Positions 5,181 to 62,913 are shown, numbered from the stretch's first letter. The stretch: DNA of 64,000 nt from a virus (IMGVR_UViG_3300024265_000043:1-64000); one strand, 5' to 3'. Translations and numbers: made by a program. Notes: a model not told the origin generated them from the sequence alone.

Positions 5181-6184
5181 TGGCCGAATTGATCAAACTT
5201 GAACCAGGTAAATCCAAATTATATTTGGGGGTTGATGATAATGAAGTTGACGATTCACCTCAAGAATTTGAATGGACTTGGATCAAAGCCGCGACAAAAC
5301 TCAGGAAAAAAGGCAGTTTCGTCGAGCATTTGGAAGCAGGTCGTTTTGGAATATATAAGAAGATTGGCATTCATTCATATGAATTTCAAGAAGGGCACAG
5401 AGCAATCTGTAGATTCAACAACGAGAGATTTGAGCATACTCACAATACAATTATAATGTCAATGGACGATTATGAATCTTCTATTTGTGGTAGAGAACTT
5501 GAAAATGGCGTAGTAATCGTTCGAGGGGCTGAATACACAGGGAAGCCTAGTATCGAAAAATTTAATCCAGAAGAATTTTTTGCTCTTCCGAGATATACAA
5601 GCGGTCAATGTAAAATGATGGCAACGGAGCGGGTAGAGCGTGATATTTCCGAGAAAGCGGTTGGCTGGCATGATCTTCCTGTAAAGGGATATGAATTCAA
5701 AACGAAATGGGAAGCAAGATATAGTTTATTCTATGGAACACTCAGAAAAGAAATGGTACTTGTCGCCAAACGCGGCGCTTCACAACAGCAGATAGATGAT
5801 GCAATTGATCTTCCTCCAAGCATCTTAGCCCTTATAGCAAGAAAATTAACTCTTGCTGAATCTGAATATTATATTGCGAGAATGGTGGAATATATTGAGA
5901 CCAATCCCCAAGCCATGTCAAATCCATCCATAAATTATAAAGTTCATCAAGCAACTCTTGAGGAAATCAATATAGAGCGTCTGAGAAACTTGCAAAGATT
6001 ACATGGCGATAATGTGAATCCATCTATCGAGAAAGCACTGAATGATGCTCTGACGCGATATTGGAAATTAGTACCAAAGGATGCAATATCTGACGCAAAG
6101 CCAAAAAACAATTATAATGCCGCTCCACCATCAAAAGAGAATAGTCACCAAGATAATGATCGCAATGATGATGGTATGTTTTAA
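5180..6184 (+). CDS. hypothetical protein upstream of terminase (possible small terminase subunit)
   Basis: A 334-residue protein that starts with GTG overlapping the previous stop (TAGTG) and has AAAGGA upstream. Its stop overlaps the ATG of the large terminase. The last 35 residues are Asn/Asp/Ser-rich and look disordered. I recognise no domain. Its place directly before the terminase fits a packaging role such as DNA recognition, but it is longer than most small terminases and no helix-turn-helix is obvious. Confidence 0.55.
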   Translation: MAELIKLEPGKSKLYLGVDDNEVDDSPQEFEWTWIKAATKLRKKGSFVEHLEAGRFGIYKKIGIHSYEFQEGHRAICRFNNERFEHTHNTIIMSMDDYESSICGRELENGVVIVRGAEYTGKPSIEKFNPEEFFALPRYTSGQCKMMATERVERDISEKAVGWHDLPVKGYEFKTKWEARYSLFYGTLRKEMVLVAKRGASQQQIDDAIDLPPSILALIARKLTLAESEYYIARMVEYIETNPQAMSNPSINYKVHQATLEEINIERLRNLQRLHGDNVNPSIEKALNDALTRYWKLVPKDAISDAKPKNNYNAAPPSKENSHQDNDRNDDGMF

Positions 6185-8325
6185 TGGCTATTTTTGATCA
6201 ATCTAAATATCCAGCCCTTACCTCTATAGGCGAAGAGAGTGTTTCGTGTATTAATCTGCCTATAGGTCATCCAGCATATCTTCATCCTATGCAAATTTAT
6301 ATATGGATGCATAATCCCTATCAAGCTGTTACTGATATTTATGAAACCAAAATGCCAATTGAACAAAGTCGAAGATTCGATCATCTAATCAATTGTAGAT
6401 TCATGGGGGACGATAGCGGTAGATCAACAGGAAAAACGTTTACATATATACAATTCATGGCAATTAGAGGAATTTGCAGTAACTATTATATGAATGTTCT
6501 ATTAGGACAAGATGCAAGTATTGGTGTTGAATTATTCAAAAAGCACTATGGCCCCCAGATGAGGGATAATGATAATTTTAAAAGATTCTTTCATACTGCT
6601 GGCCGCAAAACCCCTAGAGTATCAACAGACGGAATGATTTCTCATATCACTACTTATTCTGGCTCAGTTATACAAGCAATGACTCCTAGCGTTCAGAAGA
6701 AATTCGCAAAAATGCAATCATGGCGAGCGAACGATGGCATATTCAATGAAGTAACCACATGGCCTAACACCAAATTAATTCCAGAAACGATTGAACCTAT
6801 TTTCACAAATGGGACTCCACGTTATGTCAAAACAAAAGCATTTCGGGAAAGAATGGAAGAAATATCTGGGATTGAATTAGGATGGCTTACGAACGAAATA
6901 TTAGAAAAAAGGCATCAAAATCCTGGGTATGTTCCCAGAGAGCACATGATTAATGCCACCCTTCTTAAATGGGAAGATATAAAAGAGAAATTCTTCCTTA
7001 GTTTTGATTATACATATGGTTTTGAATATAAATATGGCATGGATAATGAGCAGATTGGATTTGAAGAAATCAAATCTATGAATGATATCGTTATGTTTTT
7101 CAGAAACTATGACGAAGGCGATCCTGTCTATTTCAATAAGCTTATTTATGACGGCAGTGCAAAAAGGCCATCAGATGATTCATATTGGATCCATAAAGAT
7201 TTCAAAAAAAGGATTAAAGAGGGGAATAGATTATATGCTCAATATTCCATAGGAGTTGATGACATCCCAACAGAATGGGATGGTATCATATATGAATCTG
7301 CCATTGTTGAAAAAGCCCGTGAATCAATGCTTGACGAAGATTTTCAGCGCGTCTGGAACGGCAAATGGACAGAAGGTAGATCCAAGAAGCCCTTCACCCT
7401 TAAAGAAATACTTGACTGCCAAGAGGCGGGCTATTTAGGAAGAATTGGAAGAGAATCGCTAACGGATGAGCATATAAGCGGGATTGATTCGGCTCAGGGC
7501 ACCGACAAGCAGCATTCCACTGAAGAAGGGGTCAAAGATGGTCGTGGCGATGATGGGGCGGAAACAATTTGGAAAGTGGGCGCAGGAACTCCTGAAAGTC
7601 CCCATGAGCTTTGTCTTGTGAGTATTGCTGAAGACGTGAGATCAGAAATATGGGCGCTTGAAATCCAAAAAAATGAACAAGCATTTCAAGGCGAATCAGA
7701 AATAGGCTGTATAATAAATATCGTGGACCCAGGCGGCGGCGGAAAGGCCACTATCGAAAGACTTGCAAAACGTCGGCTTGAGGTGAAAGGCATAGAATAT
7801 GATTTTGATCCGCTTGTTCCATATGATCATCAAGCACCATTAGAAGGATCAAAAAGATCCATTGTAATGTTTAGTCTCTCGAATGAAATGATAAAAACAT
7901 TCCTGATCGCCAGCAAGACTGAAAAAGTAATGATGCAACAACAAGATCAGTTGAATAATTATATGGTTACGAGAGCGCAGAAACTTATTAGAAATAAATG
8001 TATTAAATTCCCCCAATATCTTGATGTATCAATGCTTAATGTTATGCACAACGAGGGGAAGATTGATGATGATGTGTTCATAAATTTGATAAATATTCGG
8101 ACAGCATTGAATCAGTTATTACATCTAGAGTTTGAAACTGACAAAAATGGTAAAAAAGTCAAGACCAAAAACGGCGTATATCGCTATGTCTCTAAGGGGA
8201 ATAAAGATGTCGCTCTCGCAATTTTGTATGGTATATTTGGATGTGATATGTTTGTCAAACTTAATTCTATTGGCGATAAATCAAATCAGCCAACAACCTC
8301 ATCTTACATGCCTGTAATAGGTTAG
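6184..8325 (+). CDS. terL: terminase large subunit
   Basis: This 713-residue protein is the packaging motor. The ATPase half has a Walker A-like G-R-S-T-G-K-T (about residues 79-85) and a Walker B-like I-F-N-E-V (about residue 187). The C-terminal half has nuclease-type motifs: G-I-D-S-A-Q-G (about residue 435) and I-V-D-P-G-G-G-G-K (about residue 514), as in the RNase H-like domain that cuts concatemers. It is larger than typical TerL proteins (450-600 residues), with extra sequence around 240-330. The portal gene follows after 9 nt. Confidence 0.85.
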   Translation: MAIFDQSKYPALTSIGEESVSCINLPIGHPAYLHPMQIYIWMHNPYQAVTDIYETKMPIEQSRRFDHLINCRFMGDDSGRSTGKTFTYIQFMAIRGICSNYYMNVLLGQDASIGVELFKKHYGPQMRDNDNFKRFFHTAGRKTPRVSTDGMISHITTYSGSVIQAMTPSVQKKFAKMQSWRANDGIFNEVTTWPNTKLIPETIEPIFTNGTPRYVKTKAFRERMEEISGIELGWLTNEILEKRHQNPGYVPREHMINATLLKWEDIKEKFFLSFDYTYGFEYKYGMDNEQIGFEEIKSMNDIVMFFRNYDEGDPVYFNKLIYDGSAKRPSDDSYWIHKDFKKRIKEGNRLYAQYSIGVDDIPTEWDGIIYESAIVEKARESMLDEDFQRVWNGKWTEGRSKKPFTLKEILDCQEAGYLGRIGRESLTDEHISGIDSAQGTDKQHSTEEGVKDGRGDDGAETIWKVGAGTPESPHELCLVSIAEDVRSEIWALEIQKNEQAFQGESEIGCIINIVDPGGGGKATIERLAKRRLEVKGIEYDFDPLVPYDHQAPLEGSKRSIVMFSLSNEMIKTFLIASKTEKVMMQQQDQLNNYMVTRAQKLIRNKCIKFPQYLDVSMLNVMHNEGKIDDDVFINLINIRTALNQLLHLEFETDKNGKKVKTKNGVYRYVSKGNKDVALAILYGIFGCDMFVKLNSIGDKSNQPTTSSYMPVIG

Positions 8326-8334
8326 GAGATCAAA

Positions 8335-9990
8335 ATGTCAACCTACAAAGTAGAAGAATTATCCCTCAGAGAAGTCGTTGGGGCTTTAATGGAGAACGAG
8401 GGCATTACTGATGCGGCCAATAGTCTTAGCGTGAAGAAGAACCTTTTGGATGAGAGAATTAACGCCCTTGACGAAAAGTATGAAGGATCTGGTGCGATTG
8501 ACGCTGCAATTGCTGCTCACTTTAACTATAATCGCGGGGCTATTCATACAGGTGATAATTCTGTTTATGGAAATCTGAACCTTCTCATAGATACGACAGT
8601 ACCAAAAGATCTTGAAGCCAAATTCGCAAAAGCTATTAAATACAAATCCACAGATGATTTACTCGGGCCAAGCGTAGCGACAAAGGTTAGTTTCCTGAAG
8701 TCTGGATTCAGGGTGACAGCCAAAGACAAGGAGGCTGAGGCGAAAGCGAATGCATGGCTGAAATCTAGAAAAATAGCCAACTCATTTATCCCACAATGCG
8801 CTGAATCAATATTCCTTAATGATCAAAGTGCGGTTTTGTGGAATAGCAAAGCAAAGTCATTGTCCATATTACCGCTGGCTAATTTGAGAATATTTTCACT
8901 TCATTCGATAAACTCTGATGGTAGCCCCAAGTTCGTGACATACATGAAACTTCCGGCTGAAGTCGTTGCCTTGATTAAAAAATTAAAAGATGGCGCGAAG
9001 GAATTAGAAAATTTCCCAAAAGATTGGATTACCGCCGCTAGGAGAGGTCGCACCCGCAACACGGCAAAACCACTTATGCCCGCAGGTCCGTGGGTTGAAT
9101 TGGGGGAGAAAGGATCTGAGGATAAGGTTTACATTCTTAGCTTGAGTGGAGTGGATTCAAAACTTACTGAGCCAAGTGTGACAACAGTATTCCCGCAACT
9201 TGAATTACGCAGATTCCTTCAGGACGGCGAATTCTCTGCTGCATATCTCTCAAAATATTTCATGCATCAAATTAAAGTTGGTCCAAAAAACGAAGGGACA
9301 ACCCTCAGAGATTTATTGGCGGCAAAAACATCTGGTCCTGTTGAAAAGAAGGCTATATTAGATAAATATGCACAGACTCCCGATAAAGCCATTTGCACCG
9401 TAACTGATCAAGATGAAGAGCATGTTTTTCTATTCCCTGGCAGTGATATACAATTTGAAAAACGATACATATCCGCTGACATGAAGATATTATTCTGGGG
9501 TGGGGTATCCCTTCGCATTATGACAGATGCTGAGGGGGGTAGTTTTTCTGCTGGGCTCATTTATATGAAAGCATTCTCGAAGAAAATAGATGCGGCAAGG
9601 GCGTTGATTTCTGAACTTCTTGAAGATGTCACAGGCAGAATGGGCATCAAGGGGACAAGTTACAAATGGAACCAAAACTACATGAAGGAACCGAAGCAGG
9701 TACTTGCCGAAGTCACCTTTATGACTGGTCGAGGTCAAGACATGGAAATGGCGATAGCGCAACTTGGATATGACTGGGATGAATGGGTTGCAAAGCGTGA
9801 AAAAACGTTATCTCCAGAGGTATTAAAATTTAAAAACGATAAGGAGCAAAAGCATAAATATTGGAAGGCGCTCCAAATCCCATTCTTTGAGGATCATCAA
9901 GGGCAACTGGATGCGGGAGGTCGCCCTGAAGATGATGGGGATCAGACCGATCCAAGCAATACTGAAGATACACCAAGAGCGGGGCAATAA
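8335..9990 (+). CDS. putative portal protein
   Basis: A 551-residue protein called mainly from position: between the large terminase and the protease/scaffold gene, with a length typical of portals. It begins after TAGGAGATCAAA. The C-terminal 30 residues are acidic and rich in Gln, Gly and Asp, as in many portals. I see no diagnostic short motif. In the assembled head it would form the dodecameric ring for DNA entry and exit. Confidence 0.6.
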   Translation: MSTYKVEELSLREVVGALMENEGITDAANSLSVKKNLLDERINALDEKYEGSGAIDAAIAAHFNYNRGAIHTGDNSVYGNLNLLIDTTVPKDLEAKFAKAIKYKSTDDLLGPSVATKVSFLKSGFRVTAKDKEAEAKANAWLKSRKIANSFIPQCAESIFLNDQSAVLWNSKAKSLSILPLANLRIFSLHSINSDGSPKFVTYMKLPAEVVALIKKLKDGAKELENFPKDWITAARRGRTRNTAKPLMPAGPWVELGEKGSEDKVYILSLSGVDSKLTEPSVTTVFPQLELRRFLQDGEFSAAYLSKYFMHQIKVGPKNEGTTLRDLLAAKTSGPVEKKAILDKYAQTPDKAICTVTDQDEEHVFLFPGSDIQFEKRYISADMKILFWGGVSLRIMTDAEGGSFSAGLIYMKAFSKKIDAARALISELLEDVTGRMGIKGTSYKWNQNYMKEPKQVLAEVTFMTGRGQDMEMAIAQLGYDWDEWVAKREKTLSPEVLKFKNDKEQKHKYWKALQIPFFEDHQGQLDAGGRPEDDGDQTDPSNTEDTPRAGQ

Positions 9991-52703: not shown

Positions 52704-52727
52704 TTCTGCCTTTCTGTTCAATGTTTT

Positions 52728-52814
52728 CGCGCCCCCGCTATTCGGTATATCAGCGGATGTTAGGATTCACTATTTCACCTATTGGCGGATCGCCAGTCGT
52801 AGGACGGAGGCGCG
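52728..52814 (-). other. large intergenic structured element
   Basis: In - strand order CGCGCCTCCG (52814-52805) pairs with CGGGGGCGCG (52737-52728) as a 10-bp stem. Inside is a second hairpin: CCTA and TAGG, enclosing TGGCG-ATC-CGCCA. The remaining inner part offers CCGCT/AGCGG, which competes with the main stem. It begins 15 nt after the previous stop and ends 24 nt before the next gene's AAAGGCA box. It looks like a bigger relative of the elements at 55.6-61.7 kb. Confidence 0.6.
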
Positions 52815-52829
52815 ATGTTTAGTTCTGTT

Positions 52830-55257: not shown

Positions 55258-55596
55258 TCACGATTTATCACCTAAGTTTAATTTAGCCCTTGGGTCGCCT
55301 TCTTCCTCGTAAGACTGTTTAATAAGTTCTTCACAAGGCACATATTCACCGTTTATCCACTCGCAAATCCCAAAGTAATCACCCGTATAATAAACATGCA
55401 ATTCTTGACCATTAAGCCATTTCAAAAGGGGCTTTTCTTTGTCGCTCCCCTGTACATCATAAGAAAGCCGTGCCGCATTGTATGCACTGTGATACATGCC
55501 CACAACAGCATTGTCATATAAAATTACAAATTCATAAAGAGACAGCCACAAAACACTTATATGATCATCAATTTTGTTTACTTGCTGGTAGTTCAT
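55258..55596 (-). CDS. hypothetical protein
   Basis: A 112-residue protein with D-H-I-S-V-L-W-L-S-L-Y-E-F-V-I-L and an acidic C-terminal end. ATG at 55596 has the AAAGGCACGAA site shared with other genes here; a frame from 55725 would run through the structured gap and overlap the upstream gene. Not recognised. Confidence 0.5.
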   Translation of the reverse strand: MNYQQVNKIDDHISVLWLSLYEFVILYDNAVVGMYHSAYNAARLSYDVQGSDKEKPLLKWLNGQELHVYYTGDYFGICEWINGEYVPCEELIKQSYEEEGDPRAKLNLGDKS

Positions 55597-55618
55597 TTCG
55601 TGCCTTTCTAAAGTTAGC

Positions 55619-55658
55619 GCCAGCTCCCGAATCGAACGAGAGCAAGTACCATACTGGC
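55619..55658 (-). other. three-way-junction element H (diverged)
   Basis: In - strand order GCCAG and CTGGC pair (P1, 5-6 bp), AGTA-TGG-TACT can pair as P2, then a GC linker, then TCTCG-TTCGATT-CGGGA as P3. P3 looks exactly like a tRNA T arm. The following GCTAAC matches element G. It overlaps the stop codon of the gene at 55658-55930. It is the weakest member of the family. Confidence 0.45.
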
Positions 55659-55930
55659 TAATGACGGTCGTCGTCGAACTCGTGCATATAAACACGCCCT
55701 TTGCCGTCGGTTTCCAGCCCGTCAATGATAGTCCCGTTATCTACGTTTCGGTACATTTGTCCGGTGGTGTACATTGTAACGACCTTGCGGCTCAAACCCC
55801 CAGGATTCCGCGCCAATAGGCACACCTGAGATTTTTTATTCGCGTAGTCGAGCGAATATTCTATTACCGGAACATCTGGCTTTGCTGGCTCTCTGCCAAG
55901 GATTCTGTTAATCACGGATGGCTTAGTCAT
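55658..55930 (-). CDS. small hypothetical protein
   Basis: A 90-residue basic protein, beta-rich, with C-L-L-A-R-N-P-G-G-L-S-R-K and an acidic D-D-D-R-H end. A GGAGAAAAG site precedes the ATG. The gene lies between two of the structured elements. Not recognised. Confidence 0.5.
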   Translation of the reverse strand: MTKPSVINRILGREPAKPDVPVIEYSLDYANKKSQVCLLARNPGGLSRKVVTMYTTGQMYRNVDNGTIIDGLETDGKGRVYMHEFDDDRH

Positions 55931-55953
55931 CTTTTCTCCTTCGGTTAGTTAGC

Positions 55954-55998
55954 GCCGCCGCTGGTAGTCAACCAGGCAATGAGTACACATTCGGCGGC
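55954..55998 (-). other. three-way-junction element G
   Basis: In - strand order: GCCGCCG, then AATG-TGTACT-CATT (P2), GC, CTGGT-TGACT-ACCAG (P3), then CGGCGGC closing P1. Total 45 nt. It begins 10 nt after the stop of the methyltransferase gene and is followed by GCTAACTAACC and GGAG of the next gene. No T tract. Confidence 0.65.
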
Positions 55999-56008
55999 TG
56001 GGTAGAAA

Positions 56009-57667
56009 CTATTTATCTATTGTTACCATCCTTGCATTTACTCCCGTTTGCCTGAATGATTCAGCTCCCTTAAACGAACCTTCTTCCAGTTTTTCAGCGC
56101 ATCCATTGACATCTTCCAGCCATTCCCGAAACTCCACGGCCTTGGCGTCTGTTCTGAAAAATGGGCTTTCACTCATTAGACAGACCACTCGCCCGCCGTC
56201 GTTCAGCATCTCAAAGGCTCTCTTGATGTGGTCAATATCTGCCATTTTCTCAAAGGGCGGATTCATTATGATGCGGTCAAATGGTGAGCAATTCCGCCAG
56301 AAATCCACGTCTAGGAAATCCCACCCGCCTAAATCGTGTCCCTTGGCTTTTAGAATCTTCCGAAGGGTAGAATTTACCTCCACGGTTTTTAAATATGCGT
56401 TGGGCCACAATTCCTTGATAGCGTCGGCAATATCGCCCTTGCCCGCCGATGGCTCTAAAATGGTGTTGCTCTCTTCAATGGCTGCTCTCTCAATCATCAA
56501 ATCAATTACAGGGCGTGGAGTGGGGAAAAATCCGTCTATTTTGCACCCGATTAATTCCCGTTCAAGTTCTGCAATTGTTCGCGCCTTAATCTCCGCTTCT
56601 GTTGGTGGCTTAATATATGCCTCCAGCGCTGCCATGACTTCGGCGGAATTAGATTCCTTCACACCTGCCTTTTTCGTTCTGTCGGTCCCGTACCATTTCC
56701 AACCCTCGGGATGATAAGAGGCACGGGCGGCATTATCTAAAATATCAGCGATAACCGCCTTGGATCTGATAGCCTTTAAACAGTCTGGAAGTGTTCCCGC
56801 TTCGATATCATTAGCAAGACCGTAGAGCACAGATTGAATTTTTTGCAATCGTTCGCCGTCTTTTCGCATGGATTCGGCAATCCTTGCCCGCCTAGCTGTT
56901 GGGTTCTGCTGGCTGACTCCAGAATTAAATTTCCCGTCAATTTGTGCGGTCATCTTGTCGGCCATTGCCCGCAATTTATCGCCGTTCTCTTTTATCAAGG
57001 TTTCCCCCTTCGGCCTGGTGGACTTGGCGGTCTGTTCTACTGCTTGCCCTGCCAGTTCCTCAGCTAATAGCCTTTGCTGTTCGTGGTCCTTGGCATACCA
57101 AAAGCCGTATTTCCGATGCCAACGAAAGCCAGTATTTTTTAAACGATCCCTGATTTCTGCCGAAGGTTTGGCCGTGAATATCAATTCAATACCGTTTTTA
57201 TTTGGATTCTCTCGCAATTCGCAAAGTGCGCTCGTGCTGGTTGCCTGTTCTTTGGGTGCCTGTTCTGGTTTTGCGTCGGTTTTGGGTAGTTGGTTTCCCC
57301 CCTCTTCCATAATAATCAGCGCCAATTGATCCACATAATGAGAGCCTTGCAGGTCATATTTGCGAATTTCCCACCCTGTATCATGTCGATAACCGCCTTT
57401 GAGGAAATAGCCCGCACCCATCGAATACTTTTGGCGGTGTTCTTGCTTTTTGTCGTCGCCTGTTAGGTGTTGAACCTCTTCAAAGCCTGAAGCCTTGGCA
57501 ATTTTCCGCATTTCTGAGAAAATATCGCGATTGTGCCCGCTGAATCCTAACAACACCGCTCGCACTTCACGAGAACCGAAATAATCGCTCTGCATGTCGC
57601 TGGTATCTTCTTTATAGATAGCAACGATTGCCCCTTTGGTGCCTATTGGCATCAGTTCAGCCAGCAA
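56009..57667 (-). CDS. N6-adenine-type DNA methyltransferase, C-terminal part of a split gene
   Basis: A 552-residue frame. Near residues 146-200 it has F-T-A-K-P ... G-F-R-W-H-R-K-Y-G-F-W-Y, a small accessory module. SAM-binding is L-E-P-S-A-G-K-G-D-I-A (about 391-401) and the catalytic motif is I-M-N-P-P-F (about 466-471), so it is an N6-adenine-type enzyme. The TTG start at 57667 has AGGGC upstream. Removing one copy of a 19-bp tandem repeat joins this frame to the upstream gene without a stop, giving one 673-residue protein. It is probably the catalytic part of a broken fused gene; re-initiation may still make it. Confidence 0.7.
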   Translation of the reverse strand: MLAELMPIGTKGAIVAIYKEDTSDMQSDYFGSREVRAVLLGFSGHNRDIFSEMRKIAKASGFEEVQHLTGDDKKQEHRQKYSMGAGYFLKGGYRHDTGWEIRKYDLQGSHYVDQLALIIMEEGGNQLPKTDAKPEQAPKEQATSTSALCELRENPNKNGIELIFTAKPSAEIRDRLKNTGFRWHRKYGFWYAKDHEQQRLLAEELAGQAVEQTAKSTRPKGETLIKENGDKLRAMADKMTAQIDGKFNSGVSQQNPTARRARIAESMRKDGERLQKIQSVLYGLANDIEAGTLPDCLKAIRSKAVIADILDNAARASYHPEGWKWYGTDRTKKAGVKESNSAEVMAALEAYIKPPTEAEIKARTIAELERELIGCKIDGFFPTPRPVIDLMIERAAIEESNTILEPSAGKGDIADAIKELWPNAYLKTVEVNSTLRKILKAKGHDLGGWDFLDVDFWRNCSPFDRIIMNPPFEKMADIDHIKRAFEMLNDGGRVVCLMSESPFFRTDAKAVEFREWLEDVNGCAEKLEEGSFKGAESFRQTGVNARMVTIDK

Positions 57668-58049
57668 TATTTTGCCCTGTTCTCGCTTGGTCTCTCGATC
57701 TTCCAGTGGTCTCTCGATCTTCCAGTGCTCGCTCGTTGTTCTGCTTGCGCTGCTCTTTTGCCCTCATAGCAATATCACGCGCCGCCAAAGCTTCTTCTGC
57801 TGTTCTCATTTCGCCAGTTAGACGGAATCCATAGCGGTTGCCTCCCACTGGCTCAATTTGGCTATGTGCAACTTGTGTGGTGCCAGGCGTGTCGGTCCAG
57901 GCAATGTTTATCATGTTACCCACTTCAAAGATGATACCTTTATCATGGGTGCCCCTGTTCTCATATTGAACGACTGCACCAACTTTAAGGCCTTCGGCGG
58001 TGTTCGGCTGATGCCCGTTGTTCATATCAAAAATACTAATGACTGTCAT
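57657..58049 (-). CDS. N-terminal part of the split methyltransferase gene
   Basis: A 130-residue protein. The first 70 residues have the beta pattern of a small SH3-like DNA or protein-binding domain (V-G-A-V-V-Q-Y-E-N-R-G, I-N-I-A-W-T-D), followed by an Arg/Glu-rich helix. Its last 19 residues (after E-D-R-E-T) arise only because of the tandem duplication; without it the frame continues into the methyltransferase. AAAGGGCAAAAC precedes the ATG. I treat it as the N-terminal domain of the ancestral enzyme. Confidence 0.65.
   Translation of the reverse strand: MTVISIFDMNNGHQPNTAEGLKVGAVVQYENRGTHDKGIIFEVGNMINIAWTDTPGTTQVAHSQIEPVGGNRYGFRLTGEMRTAEEALAARDIAMRAKEQRKQNNERALEDRETTGRSRDQARTGQNIAG
57689..57726. 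repeat. 19-bp tandem duplication that splits a methyltransferase gene
   Basis: GGTCTCTCGATCTTCCAGT occurs twice in a row (57689-57707 and 57708-57726), identical in all 19 bases. Because 19 is not a multiple of 3 it shifts the frame of the upstream gene near its C-terminus and creates a stop 57 codons... of ordinary length later it ends at 57657. Deleting one copy yields a continuous reading frame through both genes. Confidence 0.85.
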
Positions 58050-58059
58050 GTTTTGCCCT

Positions 58060-58662
58060 TTATGCGCCTAGTTTTGCTAGTGTGGTTTTGGTTGCTTCGC
58101 CATTTTCCAGCATGTCCTCTAGTTCGTCACGGTGGCGCGTATCGCCTATCCTGTTATGGCTGTGGTTAATCTCATTCCCTCTATTAAATAACACTGAATG
58201 AGTTATTGCCCCGTCATTGACCGCAATCACTGTAGAACCAATAATATAATATTCCACCGTGTGAAAGATTGCCGTAATATCAGCGGCCAATTCCCGCACG
58301 TTATCAAGTGCCGTTTTTGGAGGTTGCGCCATGTCTGCGCATGCTTCCCTTACTTGTGGGGTTGCTAAATATCTTTCAGCCTGTTCTAAGACATTAACCA
58401 CGTTATTTAATGGATGATGTTCATCAAGTAAGATAAAGACATAACCGCCACCGCATTTTTCGCCACCAATCATGGTCGAACCAAGAAGGCAATATCGCAC
58501 TCGCATTTCTTTGGCCGCTTGTTCGTGACATTCCTCAATCCTTTTGGACATGTCGCGGTCAATTATTACTGTTTCATTATCCCAGGTTGCTTTAATCCTA
58601 GAGCCGTGATAATCATCAGGCCCTAAAAATTCTGTTTGAATCACGTAACTATCCGTTATCAT
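58060..58662 (-). CDS. hypothetical protein
   Basis: A 200-residue protein with C-L-L-G-S-T-M-I-G-G-E-K-C-G-G-G in the middle and H-S-H-N-R-I-G-D-T-R-H-R-D-E near the end. GAGGTTAGACG precedes the ATG. The gene follows element C. Not recognised. Confidence 0.5.
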   Translation of the reverse strand: MITDSYVIQTEFLGPDDYHGSRIKATWDNETVIIDRDMSKRIEECHEQAAKEMRVRYCLLGSTMIGGEKCGGGYVFILLDEHHPLNNVVNVLEQAERYLATPQVREACADMAQPPKTALDNVRELAADITAIFHTVEYYIIGSTVIAVNDGAITHSVLFNRGNEINHSHNRIGDTRHRDELEDMLENGEATKTTLAKLGA

Positions 58663-58699
58663 CGTCTAACCTCATTATTTATTATTTTGTTCTATCCGT

Positions 58700-58747
58700 G
58701 CCGCCGTCGGTATCGCTCCGAATCAAGGGCTAAACCCTTTCGGCGGC
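58700..58747 (-). other. three-way-junction element C
   Basis: In - strand order: GCCGCCG, AAAGGG-TTTA-GCCCTT region (AAGGG/CCCTT as P2), GAT, TCGG-AGCGATA-CCGA (P3), CGGCGGC. Total 48 nt. It begins 11 nt after the stop of the gene at 58759 and is followed, after an A/T-rich spacer, by GAGGTTAGACG at the next start. Confidence 0.62.
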
Positions 58748-58758
58748 TAGCTGTGAGG

Positions 58759-58986
58759 TTAAACAGCCAAATTCGCAAAGTAAATATCTGCATTGTCGCG
58801 TCTATCGGCTGGAAAACTTTGCCCATAATTCACCCCGTCTATTGAGAAGGTGACGGAAATACAGGCCTTGTTTTTGCGCACACCAGCACCAGCAACGACC
58901 AGACCGTCACCAATAGTCACCATTTTTAGTGGATTGCCATTTGCCGTGGTGCCTGTTTTGATTATTTTTCTTGTCGCCATTTCCAT
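58759..58986 (-). CDS. small hypothetical protein
   Basis: A 75-residue beta-rich protein (M-V-T-I-G-D-G-L-V-V-A-G-A-G-V, A-C-I-S-V-T-F-S-I-D-G). ATG at 58986 is chosen for GAGGTTAAAATC; a frame from 59046 would run through element D. Not recognised. Confidence 0.55.
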   Translation of the reverse strand: MEMATRKIIKTGTTANGNPLKMVTIGDGLVVAGAGVRKNKACISVTFSIDGVNYGQSFPADRRDNADIYFANLAV

Positions 58987-59011
58987 GATTTTAACCTCGT
59001 TTTCTGTTAGT

Positions 59012-59053
59012 GCCGCCGTTGGATTTGACTCCGTGCCTCCATGCATCGGCGGC
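59012..59053 (-). other. three-way-junction element D (short arms)
   Basis: In - strand order: GCCGCCG, then TGC-ATGGAG-GCA (P2), GGA-GTCAAA-TCC (P3), CGGCGGC. Total 42 nt. P1 is identical to elements C and G, but the inner arms are only 3 bp, so it is degenerate. It begins 14 nt after the beta-clamp gene's stop. Confidence 0.55.
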
Positions 59054-59067
59054 TGTTCATGTCCCCC

Positions 59068-60150
59068 TTAGATTCTTATGGGCATTAACAGTGCGGTTAT
59101 ATCGACGCCACAAGGTAATTTGTCCTTAATGATCGTGGCACCATAGTTATAAAAATCCCTATCTTCTCGTGGCTGCGTGCGCTTTGAATACTGCACTTCC
59201 ACAATTTCGGACTTAAGACTTTTAAGTACGGTTTCTAAAAGGGCTAAGTCATAAGCCACCGGGGCGTCGTCGCCACACTGTTCTTGTAGCTGCACTGTGT
59301 TTTCCCATTCCGTGCAGCTCTCAATATCTTCAACGAATACCCTTAGATCTTTTGGGGAAAAAGTAAATACACCCTTTTTGGTTTCCTTGTTAGCAAATCC
59401 TAGACCTTCTTTAATCGTGCCGATTAAATCGGTTCTGTTAATATCAGCCAAGCCGCCGAAATCAGAAGGGAAAACCGAGCGAAAATCTGGATAGACTTCA
59501 TCAACAAGATGAGAATATATTTTCATTCCCTCGGTTGTGACTCTCAAATACTTATCTCCAATTTCCACAAATGGGGCCTCCGTCCCTTTCTTGTCGATAA
59601 GTTTTAGCCATTCAGGGCTAATAATTCCCTCAAATTCGCCTGCATCGGCTGTAAATCCTTCACGTAGGCACATTTTGTGCCCATCCGTGGAACACATTTC
59701 CAATAGCCCGTCTATTTGCTTCACATAGACGCCCATCAGCGACGGCTTTAGTTCGTCCTTTGAGATAAATCCAACTTGTACTTGCAGGTTCTCAATAATG
59801 GATCTTGACCACCTGCCAAGGGGTGTAAAAGTATCTTCTGGATGGATTGGGAATTGTTCAGGGTCAGTATTGGGAAATTTCACCTTTTTCCCATCATACC
59901 CCAGGACTACCTTGTCCCCGTCGGTTTCAATCTCAATATTGGCTGGTTTGGTTGCCAGTACCTTTTTTAAGACCTTCAACGGTATTGCATAATTGCCCGC
60001 TATATCTATCGGAATTGTGACGGTTGTATCAAGATTTGTAATTCTTGCAATTCCGCCACTTATGCAGATCATCCCAAGTATTGGATAAGTTGGGTTTGCA
60101 GTCAAGATTTTGGTTGATAGTTTTGTTAGTCGTGTTAGTTCGTTAATCAT
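59068..60150 (-). CDS. dnaN: DNA polymerase sliding clamp (beta subunit) homologue
   Basis: A 360-residue protein, the usual clamp length. Features: T-V-T-I-P-I-D near residue 43; Y-A-I-P-L-K-V-L-K-K-V-L; V-K-F-P-N-T-D-P-E-Q-F-P; L-E-M-C-S-T-D-G-H-K-M-C-L-R near residue 150; and the C-terminal A-L-L-M-P-I-R-I, like the V-M-P-M-R-L end of DnaN. It should form a ring that holds a polymerase on DNA. No phage polymerase is present here, so it may recruit host polymerase III. Its message has the shared leader box. Confidence 0.82.
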   Translation of the reverse strand: MINELTRLTKLSTKILTANPTYPILGMICISGGIARITNLDTTVTIPIDIAGNYAIPLKVLKKVLATKPANIEIETDGDKVVLGYDGKKVKFPNTDPEQFPIHPEDTFTPLGRWSRSIIENLQVQVGFISKDELKPSLMGVYVKQIDGLLEMCSTDGHKMCLREGFTADAGEFEGIISPEWLKLIDKKGTEAPFVEIGDKYLRVTTEGMKIYSHLVDEVYPDFRSVFPSDFGGLADINRTDLIGTIKEGLGFANKETKKGVFTFSPKDLRVFVEDIESCTEWENTVQLQEQCGDDAPVAYDLALLETVLKSLKSEIVEVQYSKRTQPREDRDFYNYGATIIKDKLPCGVDITALLMPIRI

Positions 60151-60155
60151 TTTTC

Positions 60156-60180
60156 TGCCTTTCGATTGTTGTTTAACCTC
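60156..60180 (-). promoter_or_regulatory. shared leader box B (ribosome-site region)
   Basis: GAGGTTAAACAACAATCG followed by AAAGGCA precedes the clamp gene. The same order of boxes is found before the genes at 61614 and 62202. GAGGTT and AAAGGCA could both pair with 16S rRNA, giving a double or alternative ribosome site. Confidence 0.55.
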
Positions 60181-60191
60181 ATTCGTTAGTT

Positions 60192-60236
60192 GCTACCGTA
60201 GGCAATGAGCCTAGTAATGCCGTCGCATTCGGTAGC
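60192..60236 (-). other. three-way-junction element B
   Basis: In - strand order: GCTACCG, AATGC-GACG-GCATT (P2), AC, TAGGC-TCATT-GCCTA (P3), CGGTAGC. Total 45 nt. All three stems are perfectly paired, though their sequences differ from element A at 2, 3 and 2 base pairs. It begins 7 nt after the stop of the gene at 60243. Confidence 0.7.
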
Positions 60237-60242
60237 ATTCCT

Positions 60243-60458
60243 TTATTTCCTTATAAATTCCCCCACTTCATAAAATACATGTCGTGTTATTAAGTCGCCA
60301 TTTTCATCGGTGAAATCCGCCCTTGCACGCTTGCCCCTAGTTTCCAGCAGTTGCCCGCACTGAATCCGTGCCCCTTCGATAATTTGGTCTAGGCTACCGA
60401 TAGCCTTGTATTCCTTAACCGGGACATGAGAAGCACTATAAATAGTTACTGTGGTCAT
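60243..60458 (-). CDS. small hypothetical protein
   Basis: A 71-residue protein with an I-Y-S-A-S-H-V-P start and R-A-R-A-D-F-T-D-E-N-G. GAGGGCAGGACT precedes the ATG. Not recognised. Confidence 0.5.
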   Translation of the reverse strand: MTTVTIYSASHVPVKEYKAIGSLDQIIEGARIQCGQLLETRGKRARADFTDENGDLITRHVFYEVGEFIRK

Positions 60459-60469
60459 AGTCCTGCCCT

Positions 60470-60805
60470 CTAATAATCGTCGTTACGTGATAATTCTAAG
60501 CAGTCAACGCTGCAATAAGTATCATCTAAATCGCTCGGGTGAATCTCACCTCCGCATTGTTCACAAGATCCTTTGGCAGTTTGTGGATCATTAGACAGTT
60601 TTAAATCTGGATCATCAAATGGTGTGCTTTCCTTCTCTCCATACTCATAAAGAATATCGGCAATCTTCTGCATTATTTCCGTGGGCAATGATAGCCAATG
60701 CGTGGAGGTGTCCCCGTGGTGCATTTTTATTTGTCCCTTATATTCTGAATCCTTGCACGAATCCAAAACAGGCTCAATTTGGTTTTTGTGGTAGTTGTAG
60801 CTCAT
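60470..60805 (-). CDS. hypothetical protein with C-terminal zinc ribbon
   Basis: A 111-residue protein. The C-terminal 30 residues contain C-E-Q-C-G-G-E-I-H and Y-C-S-V-D-C, a complete four-Cys zinc site. The front half contains W-L-S-L-P-T-E-I-M-Q-K-I-A-D-I-L. AAGGGGAAATAA precedes the ATG. Function unknown. Confidence 0.55.
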   Translation of the reverse strand: MSYNYHKNQIEPVLDSCKDSEYKGQIKMHHGDTSTHWLSLPTEIMQKIADILYEYGEKESTPFDDPDLKLSNDPQTAKGSCEQCGGEIHPSDLDDTYCSVDCLELSRNDDY

Positions 60806-60985
60806 TTATTTCCCCTTTCCCCGAATGTGCCCAGTAACAACAAACCGCCTAAATGATGCAACGACGCCCGCAACCGTACCTTTATAGGTAGGTCCGAAGG
60901 ATACGCCAGTCCAGCCACAAGGCCTTATTTCTAATGATAGCCACACCCTACTTTTGGATATATTGCCAATGCTGAAATGCTTCAT
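60806..60985 (-). CDS. 59-residue hypothetical protein
   Basis: A basic, beta-rich 59-residue protein with W-L-S-L-E-I-R-P-C-G-W and G-T-V-A-G-V-V-A-S-F-R-R-F. ATG at 60985 has AAGGGGCAACCTA and overlaps the previous stop (TAATG); a frame from 61075 lies inside the neighbour. Not recognised. Confidence 0.55.
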   Translation of the reverse strand: MKHFSIGNISKSRVWLSLEIRPCGWTGVSFGPTYKGTVAGVVASFRRFVVTGHIRGKGK

Positions 60986-61284
60986 TAGGTTGCCCCTTCG
61001 ACTAGGAATTGACCAACAGCGACAAAATATGCAGGGTGATCTTTGGGGAGTCGGTCCCGCAATAGATCGGCACAACAGGCGCTTAACTCGGTGCCGTCTA
61101 TTTCGTCAGATTCGTCACTATAGCGACCATTAAGGGTAAAGTCTACTAGCCCCGTAGAATCGAAAGCAGCCGTAAACCTATTGCCTTGAAGGGTCGAACA
61201 AGGCCAGCCTACGCTTAACCAGTCGTATACATCCCCTTGGCTGGCGTACAGGGTGACAAAATTCTCTGTTATTTCTACTCTCAT
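60985..61284 (-). CDS. hypothetical protein
   Basis: A 99-residue acidic, beta-rich protein (F-V-T-L-Y-A-S-Q-G-D-V-Y-D-W-L, C-C-A-D-L-L). AAAGGGCAATTCCA precedes the ATG. Not recognised. Confidence 0.5.
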   Translation of the reverse strand: MRVEITENFVTLYASQGDVYDWLSVGWPCSTLQGNRFTAAFDSTGLVDFTLNGRYSDESDEIDGTELSACCADLLRDRLPKDHPAYFVAVGQFLVEGAT

Positions 61285-61296
61285 TGGAATTGCCCT

Positions 61297-61614
61297 TTAT
61301 CTTAGGTGTTGATGTGCCGCACAATAAGTATTGTCTGTGAGCGCCATATAAACACGGTGGCAAGTATGGCAATTAAATAATTCATCTGGGTTTACTTCAA
61401 CCGCAACCCCATTAACAATATGCGCTTGGAAATCATCGTCCCAATAATCATCTGGTAAATAAACGTGCTGCGCTTCATCAATTTGGCCCCATTCCCCTTC
61501 ACCGCAGGCACGATCTACGATGCCGTTATTTACGCGCAAGAATATCGTGCTAACGCCACCCTTATCTTTATAAAATGGGTCGTCGTTTTTAATTTCTGTC
61601 TGATAATACCTCAT
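61297..61614 (-). CDS. hypothetical protein with C-terminal cysteines
   Basis: A 105-residue protein with F-N-C-H-T-C-H near residue 82 and Y-C-A-A-H near residue 97, likely a Cys/His zinc site. The front half is acidic. It follows leader box A and element A. Not recognised. Confidence 0.5.
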   Translation of the reverse strand: MRYYQTEIKNDDPFYKDKGGVSTIFLRVNNGIVDRACGEGEWGQIDEAQHVYLPDDYWDDDFQAHIVNGVAVEVNPDELFNCHTCHRVYMALTDNTYCAAHQHLR

Positions 61615-61620
61615 AATTCT

Positions 61621-61643
61621 TGCCTTTCGATGTGTTTAACCTC
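61621..61643 (-). promoter_or_regulatory. shared leader box A
   Basis: GAGGTTAAACACATCG then AAAGGCA precedes the gene starting at 61614. Nearly the same sequence precedes the clamp gene (box B) and the gene at 62202 (box E). Confidence 0.55.
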
Positions 61644-61650
61644 AGTGAGT

Positions 61651-61696
61651 GCCGTCGTAAGTAATGGACTTAGTAAGGGCTGTACCCTTCGACGGC
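61651..61696 (-). other. three-way-junction element A
   Basis: In - strand order: GCCGTCG, AAGGG-TACAG-CCCTT (P2), AC, TAAGT-CCATT-ACTTA (P3), CGACGGC. Total 46 nt, with perfect pairing in all three stems and no unpaired bases except loops and the AC linker. It begins 10 nt after the stop of the gene at 61707. Confidence 0.7.
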
Positions 61697-61706
61697 GGGA
61701 ATTATG

Positions 61707-61922
61707 CTAGAGTATCAATTCTTGCTCGGTTTCAATTATACACGCTTCCCAATATTCAGCCAGCCAGGAAAGATCGTCTGATGCGTCACTAATTGCGCTA
61801 TCAACTTGGTGGCATTCACCATATGTGGGCTGAATAATATCATCAACATAAGACCTCAATTCTTCCACCACCATAATGGCTCTTTTTAAATCGGTGATTT
61901 GCTCGGATGTTGGTTTTGGCAT
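61707..61922 (-). CDS. small hypothetical protein
   Basis: A 71-residue acidic, helical protein (L-R-S-Y-V-D-D-I-I-Q-P-T, E-Y-W-E-A-C-I-I-E). GAAGGACATACTAAA precedes the ATG. It starts 1 nt after the previous stop. Not recognised. Confidence 0.5.
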   Translation of the reverse strand: MPKPTSEQITDLKRAIMVVEELRSYVDDIIQPTYGECHQVDSAISDASDDLSWLAEYWEACIIETEQELIL

Positions 61923-61923
61923 T

Positions 61924-62202
61924 TTAGTATGTCCTTCTGTCAGATAATGGTCGTTTAGTTGCGTATGCCAATTCGTCGCGTAATTGAAATTCGATTTCTT
62001 CTTTTGCGGCTTTCAACGTATCCCAAATGCCAGCATATTGATATAGTGTCCCATCATTATAATGTAATTCAGCATACCAGCCTTGTTTTTCACCATAACG
62101 GGCTTTACGGATCTGACCAAATTTCTCCCCAGCACTATAGCGATAATAGCCCTTTACAGGGTCATTCCGTCGCCATTCGCCTAGTTTGTTGTTGTCGGTC
62201 AT
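61924..62202 (-). CDS. first gene of the leftward arm, hypothetical
   Basis: A 92-residue protein with Y-R-Y-S-A-G-E-K-F-G-Q-I-R-K-A-R-Y-G-E and L-Y-Q-Y-A-G-I-W-D-T-L; charged at both ends. ATG at 62202 is chosen because AAAGGCA lies about 9 nt upstream; ATG at 62220 is within that box. As the promoter-proximal early gene it may act at once on the host. Not recognised. Confidence 0.55.
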   Translation of the reverse strand: MTDNNKLGEWRRNDPVKGYYRYSAGEKFGQIRKARYGEKQGWYAELHYNDGTLYQYAGIWDTLKAAKEEIEFQLRDELAYATKRPLSDRRTY

Positions 62203-62210
62203 TTGATGAT

Positions 62211-62235
62211 TGCCTTTCAACTGTTATTTAACCTC
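62211..62235 (-). promoter_or_regulatory. shared leader box E
   Basis: GAGGTTAAATAACAGTTG then AAAGGCA leads the first gene of the arm. It matches boxes A and B but has no three-way-junction element before it. A TTGACA lies at 62276-62271 on the - strand, but no good -10 follows. Confidence 0.5.
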
Positions 62236-62448
62236 AATTCTAGAATCAATTTCGCCCCTCACTACCTCATTGTCAAGTCTTTTCTTATCTTTTTTATTAT
62301 CTCATTCGTACTCCTTATATATAGGGCATACCACCCCAAACTTTATTTTAAAGCAAATGTGTGAATATTACGTCACATCATCGCCTAGCAACTCTTAATA
62401 TATAAAGTACCCCATAGCGTCCCCTTATATCTCTTGTATATACTCTCT

Positions 62449-62482
62449 ACTCATGCCCTTTTAAAGGACTTACACCATATAT
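62449..62482. repeat. 34-bp direct repeat, copy 1
   Basis: ACTCATGCCCTTTTA starts both copies; 28 of 34 bases match the copy at 62645-62678, which lies 196 bp away. This copy contains CCTTTTAAAGG, a near-palindrome. Likely a binding site or promoter duplicate. Confidence 0.6.
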
Positions 62483-62644
62483 CACACTTATTATATGTTG
62501 CTTATATCTTATATACTGGTAATCATTCAGTAATACTAACCTGCTACTACACCACACCACCTAACTAGAACAGCAACAAGGCACCCCTAAAGTATATATA
62601 TTCTCAATATGATACACTGCACATAGCACAGCACACAACGCCCC

Positions 62645-62678
62645 ACTCATGCCCTTTTACTGAACTTAGCCCATGTAT
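62645..62678. repeat. 34-bp direct repeat, copy 2
   Basis: ACTCATGCCCTTTTA followed by a diverged tail ending CCATGTAT. It matches copy 1 at 28 of 34 bases. A run of alternating TA follows it. Confidence 0.6.
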
Positions 62679-62913
62679 ATATATAAGATAGTGTATGTGA
62701 AGATATACTACATGTATCATAATGAGACATAGAATCATTTAATAGAGGACAAGCAATACTTGTTTTCGTTCGCAGCCCCTTTTGACGATTCGCCCCAAAT
62801 TTTCCACTTACCATATACCCAGCCATACCGCACAATAATCTAGTGTAGATTATTACATTGGATGTGTGCCCCGTCGTGATAGGTATGCTAAGGGATGGGG
62901 GTTAGTTACATTT

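Follow-up and report, generated by a model that had tools for sequence, protein, structure and literature searches.

Compact predicted three-way junctions form a repeated family in the gene gaps of an orphan tailed phage

Between the early genes of phage T7 lie RNase III sites, long hairpins interrupted by an internal bulge, and the attC sites of integrons are folded elements found right after a stop codon that carry a 7-bp outer stem with the GTTRRRY/RYYYAAC sequences. Transcript stability inside selective RNA processing and stabilization (SRPS) operons is set by intergenic stem-loops (PMC8219983). The putRNA of phage HK022 is a cis-acting RNA with two stem-loops that acts on early transcription, and its two copies, putL and putR, are V-shaped, approximately 70 nt long, and each located downstream of an early promoter (PMC9378689). 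RNA hairpins are also present near ribosome sites in T4-related phages, including that of seg43(25) of Aeromonas phage 25 (PMC2988022). We analyzed bases 1-64000 of the 83,714-bp IMG/VR virus record IMGVR_UViG_3300024265_000043 (this 64,000-nt stretch is referred to as the window) together with the remainder of the record, and found 5 elements of 42-48 nt, named A, B, C, D, and G, which lie on the minus strand in the gaps of a leftward gene row and are predicted to fold as compact three-way junctions.

In these elements a 7-bp outer stem (P1) closes on 2 short hairpins (P2 and P3), and the junction contains 2-4 unpaired nt. Folding of isolated pieces gave the three-way junction as both the minimum free energy (MFE) and the centroid structure of A, B, C, and G. 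The MFE structure of D is also a three-way junction, and its centroid is unstable (z -2.52). A first-pass annotation of this DNA had ascribed the same architecture to 6 members, including a further gap sequence, H. This description stands for A, B, C, and G and is weaker for D, but it fails for H, the MFE fold of which differs from a three-way junction and has a z score of only -0.55 when folded with its flanks. The 6 sequences are as follows:

Element A: 61651-61696, minus strand; 7-bp P1, P2 AAGGG/CCCTT (plus a U-G pair), linker AC, P3 TAAGT/ACTTA; MFE -18.4, z -4.11
Element B: 60192-60236, minus strand; P1 GCTACCG/CGGTAGC, P2 AATGC/GCATT, P3 TAGGC/GCCTA; z -4.24, and -5.22 in a windowed calculation
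Element D: 59012-59053, minus strand; weaker member with a 7-bp P1 and inner arms of only 3 bp
Element C: 58700-58747, minus strand; P1 GCCGCCG/CGGCGGC, P2 AAGGGU/GCCCUU, P3 TCGG/CCGA; z -3.36
Element G: 55954-55998, minus strand; P1 GCCGCCG/CGGCGGC, P2 AATG/CATT, P3 CTGGT/ACCAG; z -2.77
Sequence H: 55619-55658, minus strand; three-way junction unsupported, sharing with the elements only its position in a gap and a GCTAAC flank

P1 of element B is extended by one additional T-A pair (span 60191-60237). In A, B, C, and G, no linker separates P3 from P1. The outermost P1 pair is G-C in all 5 elements, and constant letters are found at the junction (CGAA, TT-RC, and inner CG pairs).

Both strands of the whole 83,714-bp genome were scanned for this geometry under strict settings (P1 of at least 7 bp, short linkers, and an MFE of -18 or lower). 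The scan returned 4 places, which are exactly A, B, C, and G, all within a 6.1-kb stretch. In 200 shuffled genomes with dinucleotides kept in 500-nt blocks, such places numbered 0.02 on average and never exceeded 1 per genome, which makes this a strong test, though not a fully independent one, as the geometry was chosen after the elements were known. A covariance model, the check that the annotation had proposed, was built from A, B, and G only and recovered C blind (26.5 bits, E 0.0063). With filters off over 12 kb, the same model scored D at 16.3 bits and the next place, an unrelated one, at 7.9 bits. H obtained 6.8 bits in this model (55623-55643, filters off) and 10.7 bits versus a background of 10.1 in a model made from all 5 copies. 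H was dropped as a family member on the basis of these scores near background, its fold, and its z score, and is possibly a decayed copy. Altogether, A, B, C, D, and G are a true repeated structured family.

To follow the pairs across copies, the 5 paralogous copies from this one genome were aligned with MAFFT, with the structure derived from the same copies. Two-sided changes were present at 8 of the 17 pairs (11 cells), and neither value was reached in any of 500 shuffles. Paired cells amounted to 90% across the alignment, again a value that no shuffle of 500 attained, and the signal vanished when the pairing partners were slid. P1 was 100% paired, with variation confined to its 3 middle pairs (CGT/ACG, TAC/GTA, and CGC/GCG). 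The claim that pairing is kept while the stem letters change was thus borne out, and the covariation, in a small sample of 5 paralogous copies, supports selection for structure. The fold has probably been selected as a signal in messenger RNA.

The position of the elements is equally regular. Between 55.3 and 62.2 kb there are 13 gene junctions, with lengths of 1, 92 (A), 12, -1, 0, 11, 92 (B), 81 (D), 96 (C), 10, -11, 78 (G), and 61 nt (H), as measured from curated gene starts that were confirmed by translation except for the first row. All 5 junctions of 78-96 nt carry an element, the 61-nt junction carries H, and the remaining ones are 12 nt or shorter. As the annotation had stated, the elements start soon after a stop codon and precede the ribosome site of the next gene: A, B, C, D, and G start 6-14 nt past the stop (10 nt in the case of A) and end 23-41 nt ahead of the next start. 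The gene downstream of element B is dnaN-like, encoding a sliding clamp. On the 3' side, B, D, G, and H share the flank CTAAC; A has CTCAC and C has CGGAT at this place. A leader motif of the GAGGTTAAA type follows A, B, D, and C and is also present before the first gene of the arm. The window contains 5 exact copies of GAGGTTAAA, all at 58.7-62.3 kb, one of which is inverted over the stop ahead of C. The flanks and leader motifs are:

3' flank of A: 61645-61650, minus strand; ACTCAC, a variant of RCTAAC
3' flank of B: 60185-60191, minus strand; AACTAAC
3' flank of D: 59006-59011, minus strand; ACTAAC
3' flank of G: 55948-55953, minus strand; GCTAAC
3' flank of H: 55613-55618, minus strand; GCTAAC
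Leader motif after A: 61635-61643, minus strand; GAGGTTAAA
Leader motif after B: 60172-60180, minus strand; GAGGTTAAA
Leader motif after D: 58990-58998, minus strand; GAGGTTAAA, at Shine-Dalgarno (SD) distance
Leader motif after C: 58664-58674, minus strand; TGAGGTTAGAC, at SD distance, with possible pairing to 58754-58764
Inverted copy of the leader motif: 58754-58764, minus strand; GTTTAACCTCA, spanning the stop codon before C and complementary to the leader motif over 11 bp
Leader motif of the first gene of the arm: 62227-62235, minus strand; GAGGTTAAA, with no element at this site

The elements could be assigned to none of the described families tested, in agreement with the annotation, which had named no family of this shape. 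Rfam 15 gave no matches in the window at the gathering threshold, and a single unrelated weak match was obtained in 55500-62500 at E values up to 10. No paper describing such an element was found with the search terms used in one open-access library. Intrinsic terminators were rejected, again as the annotation had it, by the absence of a T tract and of minus-strand terminator calls at the elements; one weak plus-strand call falls inside B. ARAGORN found no tRNA, and its permissive modes did not single out the elements. Promoter-like sites were no commoner than in shuffles, and an antiterminator of the HK022 put type was rejected on this lack of promoter excess and on differences in size and closing stem. 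Integron attC sites do not fit because the 3' strands of P1 (CGACGGC, CGGTAGC, and CGGCGGC) do not match the RYYYAAC/GTTRRRY outer stem. A T7-like RNase III site would have an extended double helix, which is not present here (the longest possible coaxial stack of P1 and P3 is 11-12 bp). Finally, hammerhead and other self-cleaving ribozymes were discarded on the basis of the small junction, with only 2-4 unpaired nt, and the lack of Rfam ribozyme matches.

Homologues, which in large number would have supported the family according to the annotation, were not found in the collections searched, from which very near records may be missing and for which there was no positive control outside this genome. 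Three DNA patterns were compared with viral contigs: the first gave 1 chance match within a coding frame, the second none, and the third 6 sequence matches, 5 of which are one stretch and none of which folds as a three-way junction. Searches guided by DnaN and by the TerL and portal candidates found no relatives. These candidates (TerL at 6184-8325 and portal at 8335-9990) were proposed from sequence motifs and gene order, not from database matches. Topoisomerase relatives of up to 52% identity were found, and a model search of 83 loci from them (1.34 Mb) did not detect the element, nor did a model search of 50 records (49 virus records and 1 cellular genome). Element B yielded only short chance matches to phage records. 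Nothing was found in 96 cellular genomes around the nearest relative of the phage TnpB, a guessed host group, a result that had no positive control and proves little.

The record represents an "orphan" tailed phage, for which no close relatives are known. It encodes a tape-measure protein, a DnaB-type helicase, a Bet-type annealing protein, a topoisomerase, the dnaN-like sliding clamp, a tyrosine recombinase with integron-integrase-like similarity, and a TnpB. The latter, a TnpB-family RNA-guided nuclease gene at genome position 82008-83159, is most similar to a Rhodospirillaceae metagenome-assembled genome contig (54% identity) and is called "lone", TnpA not having been searched for. Gene content and position suggest that the leftward row is early, and the tight same-strand spacing of its genes suggests that they form a single operon. 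The leftward and rightward gene rows are separated by a long A+T-rich gap (62221-62865) with diverged direct repeats at 62442-62482 and 62638-62678, which is a candidate control region or origin. Within the leftward row, a 19-nt unit, actggaagatcgagagacc, is present in 2 tandem copies at approximately 57670-57730 (minus strand), at the overlap of a 130-aa and a 552-aa frame, and may reflect either a gene split by a frameshift or an assembly error.

Structured regions were also observed elsewhere. In the right arm, 377 nt without an obvious gene (72157-72533, plus strand) fold more stably than shuffles (z -3.4) and contain 2 three-way folds, at 72462-72510 (z -7.1 alone) and 72375-72443 (z -4.4, piece folded), with sequences unlike the A-G family. 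This region, a possible noncoding RNA locus, yielded neither an Rfam match nor a meaningful one among phages. At 70077-70146 (plus strand), a 7-bp AGAAACA/TGTTTCT stem over 2 hairpins is followed by a T-rich stretch and resembles an intrinsic terminator built on a three-way base. A 108-nt gap of the left arm (52722-52829, minus strand) contains a branched fold at 52727-52815 with a 12-bp G+C-rich closing stem (z -3.5).

We tentatively favor, at slightly less than an even chance, that A, B, C, D, and G are cis-acting RNA elements that mark gene boundaries in the early polycistronic mRNA and act in its stability or processing. The elements would be paralogous copies of one cassette, composed of the compact three-way-junction RNA, the RCTAAC-type flank, and, in A-D, a leader of the GAGGTTAAA type; this cassette would have multiplied along the early, leftward row of genes. 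The fold would form past the stop codon of a gene, ahead of the ribosome site of the gene that follows, and act in cis, either by blocking exonucleases or by marking a processing point, and neighboring genes would thereby have different mRNA stability. A role in stability or processing is suggested by the placement of the elements, the stability of the fold, the absence of a terminator tail, and the analogy with SRPS operons (PMC8219983). For action at the RNA level, the MFE of the sense strand was lower than that of the antisense strand in all 8 structures compared (A, B, C, D, G, H, and 2 others), and G-U pairs occurred on the sense strand in 5 of the 8, A and C among them, as would be expected from selection on RNA. 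The annotation had left the list of possible roles open, and the strand comparison modestly favors a role in the transcript over one in DNA. Several points weigh against our interpretation: the sequence similarity among copies is explained in part by recent duplication, only 5 copies in one genome are known and no homologues were found, some antisense folds are almost as stable as the sense ones (in G, -19.4 antisense versus -19.5 sense), and all genes of the arm are on the minus strand, which limits the orientation argument.

The constant junction letters, the CTAAC flank at fixed places, and the repetition before several genes of one row would also suit a protein-binding site, at which a protein of the phage or host, for instance a ribosomal protein or a regulator of the phage, would coordinate downstream translation or elongation in the manner of nut/put sites or translational operators, and HK022 putRNA provides a phage precedent (PMC9378689). 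We regard this as unlikely: put occurs as 2 copies near early promoters, whereas 5 elements lie inside one gene row here, and promoter-like sites are at shuffle level.

Proximity to the stop codon would also be expected if the elements brought the stop beside the next ribosome site, coupling or insulating translation, with an outer helix that in some cases hides this site until the ribosome terminates. Such a helix is predicted in C, in which the ribosome site and leader can form 11 bp with the stop region (-16.1 kcal/mol, with 0 of 1000 shuffles as good). It was not significant in the others (p 0.24 in A, 0.86 in B, 0.24 in D, 0.24 in G, and 0.17 in H), and a general stop-to-start helix across the family was rejected. 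In addition, the mean unpaired probability from SD to AUG, scored for A and B, was 0.41 in A but 0.66 in B, so that about two-thirds of this region is predicted to be unpaired in the latter. Hiding of the ribosome site may apply to C, and perhaps to A, and is not a general rule; we give translational coupling a lower probability than protein binding.

The same low probability is assigned to an action in DNA, in which a cruciform or single-strand fold would serve as a recombination, replication-priming, or cassette site, or in which a small mobile repeat would spread by its fold. Gap repeats with a common flank, the similar folding of both strands, and the Bet-type protein, integron-integrase-like recombinase, and TnpB encoded by the phage are compatible with this; the greater sense-strand stability in every comparison and the lack of the attC signature argue against it. 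Very improbable, finally, is a tRNA-like top half, with a 7-bp acceptor-like stem stacked on a 5-bp arm, at which RNase P or Z would cut the early mRNA between genes: the 7-bp P1 with its outermost G-C pair, the abutting P3, and a purine followed by C after P1 in 4 of 5 elements recall such a structure, but there is no CCA, the 5-nt arm loops of A, B, and G lack the T-loop consensus, and the ARAGORN results given above do not support it.

A structured RNA family that has multiplied in one phage with its fold kept is a natural experiment, in which each copy tests which pairs matter. If the elements act in the transcript, they would amount to a boundary element of polycistronic mRNA that is both small and portable, and they would point to an unknown factor that recognizes them in this orphan phage. 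A bolder proposal, and in our estimate an unlikely one, is that they belong to a new class of phage RNA "punctuation", in which a minimal three-way junction in every wide gap of the early row would be the target of a specific factor, through which the neighboring genes are cut, protected, or coupled, and in which the three-way folds of the other arm would do similar work.

Set against the systems introduced above, the elements share partial features with each. Like T7 RNase III sites, they lie as structured elements in a polycistronic phage mRNA, between genes of the early region, but their 7-bp P1 and arms of 3-6 bp are below the typical length of RNase III substrates. With attC sites they have in common a folded element directly past the stop codon and a 7-bp outer stem, whereas attC sites are larger and possess the GTTRRRY/RYYYAAC sequences in this stem. 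They resemble HK022 putL and putR as candidate cis-acting RNAs of a phage early region with 2 stem-loops, and differ from them in their 42-48-nt length, their common closing stem, and their presence as 5 copies between genes. As in T4-related phages, a stable structure is located just upstream of the ribosome site without covering it, although the hairpins of those phages are single and occur at individual genes, and the elements described here are repeated and branched. In SRPS operons, as here, stable structures occupy intergenic regions after the stop codon of a gene, in our case within a probable operon. The SRPS structures are stem-loops at selected genes, while those of this phage are repeated and related three-way junctions with conserved flanks.

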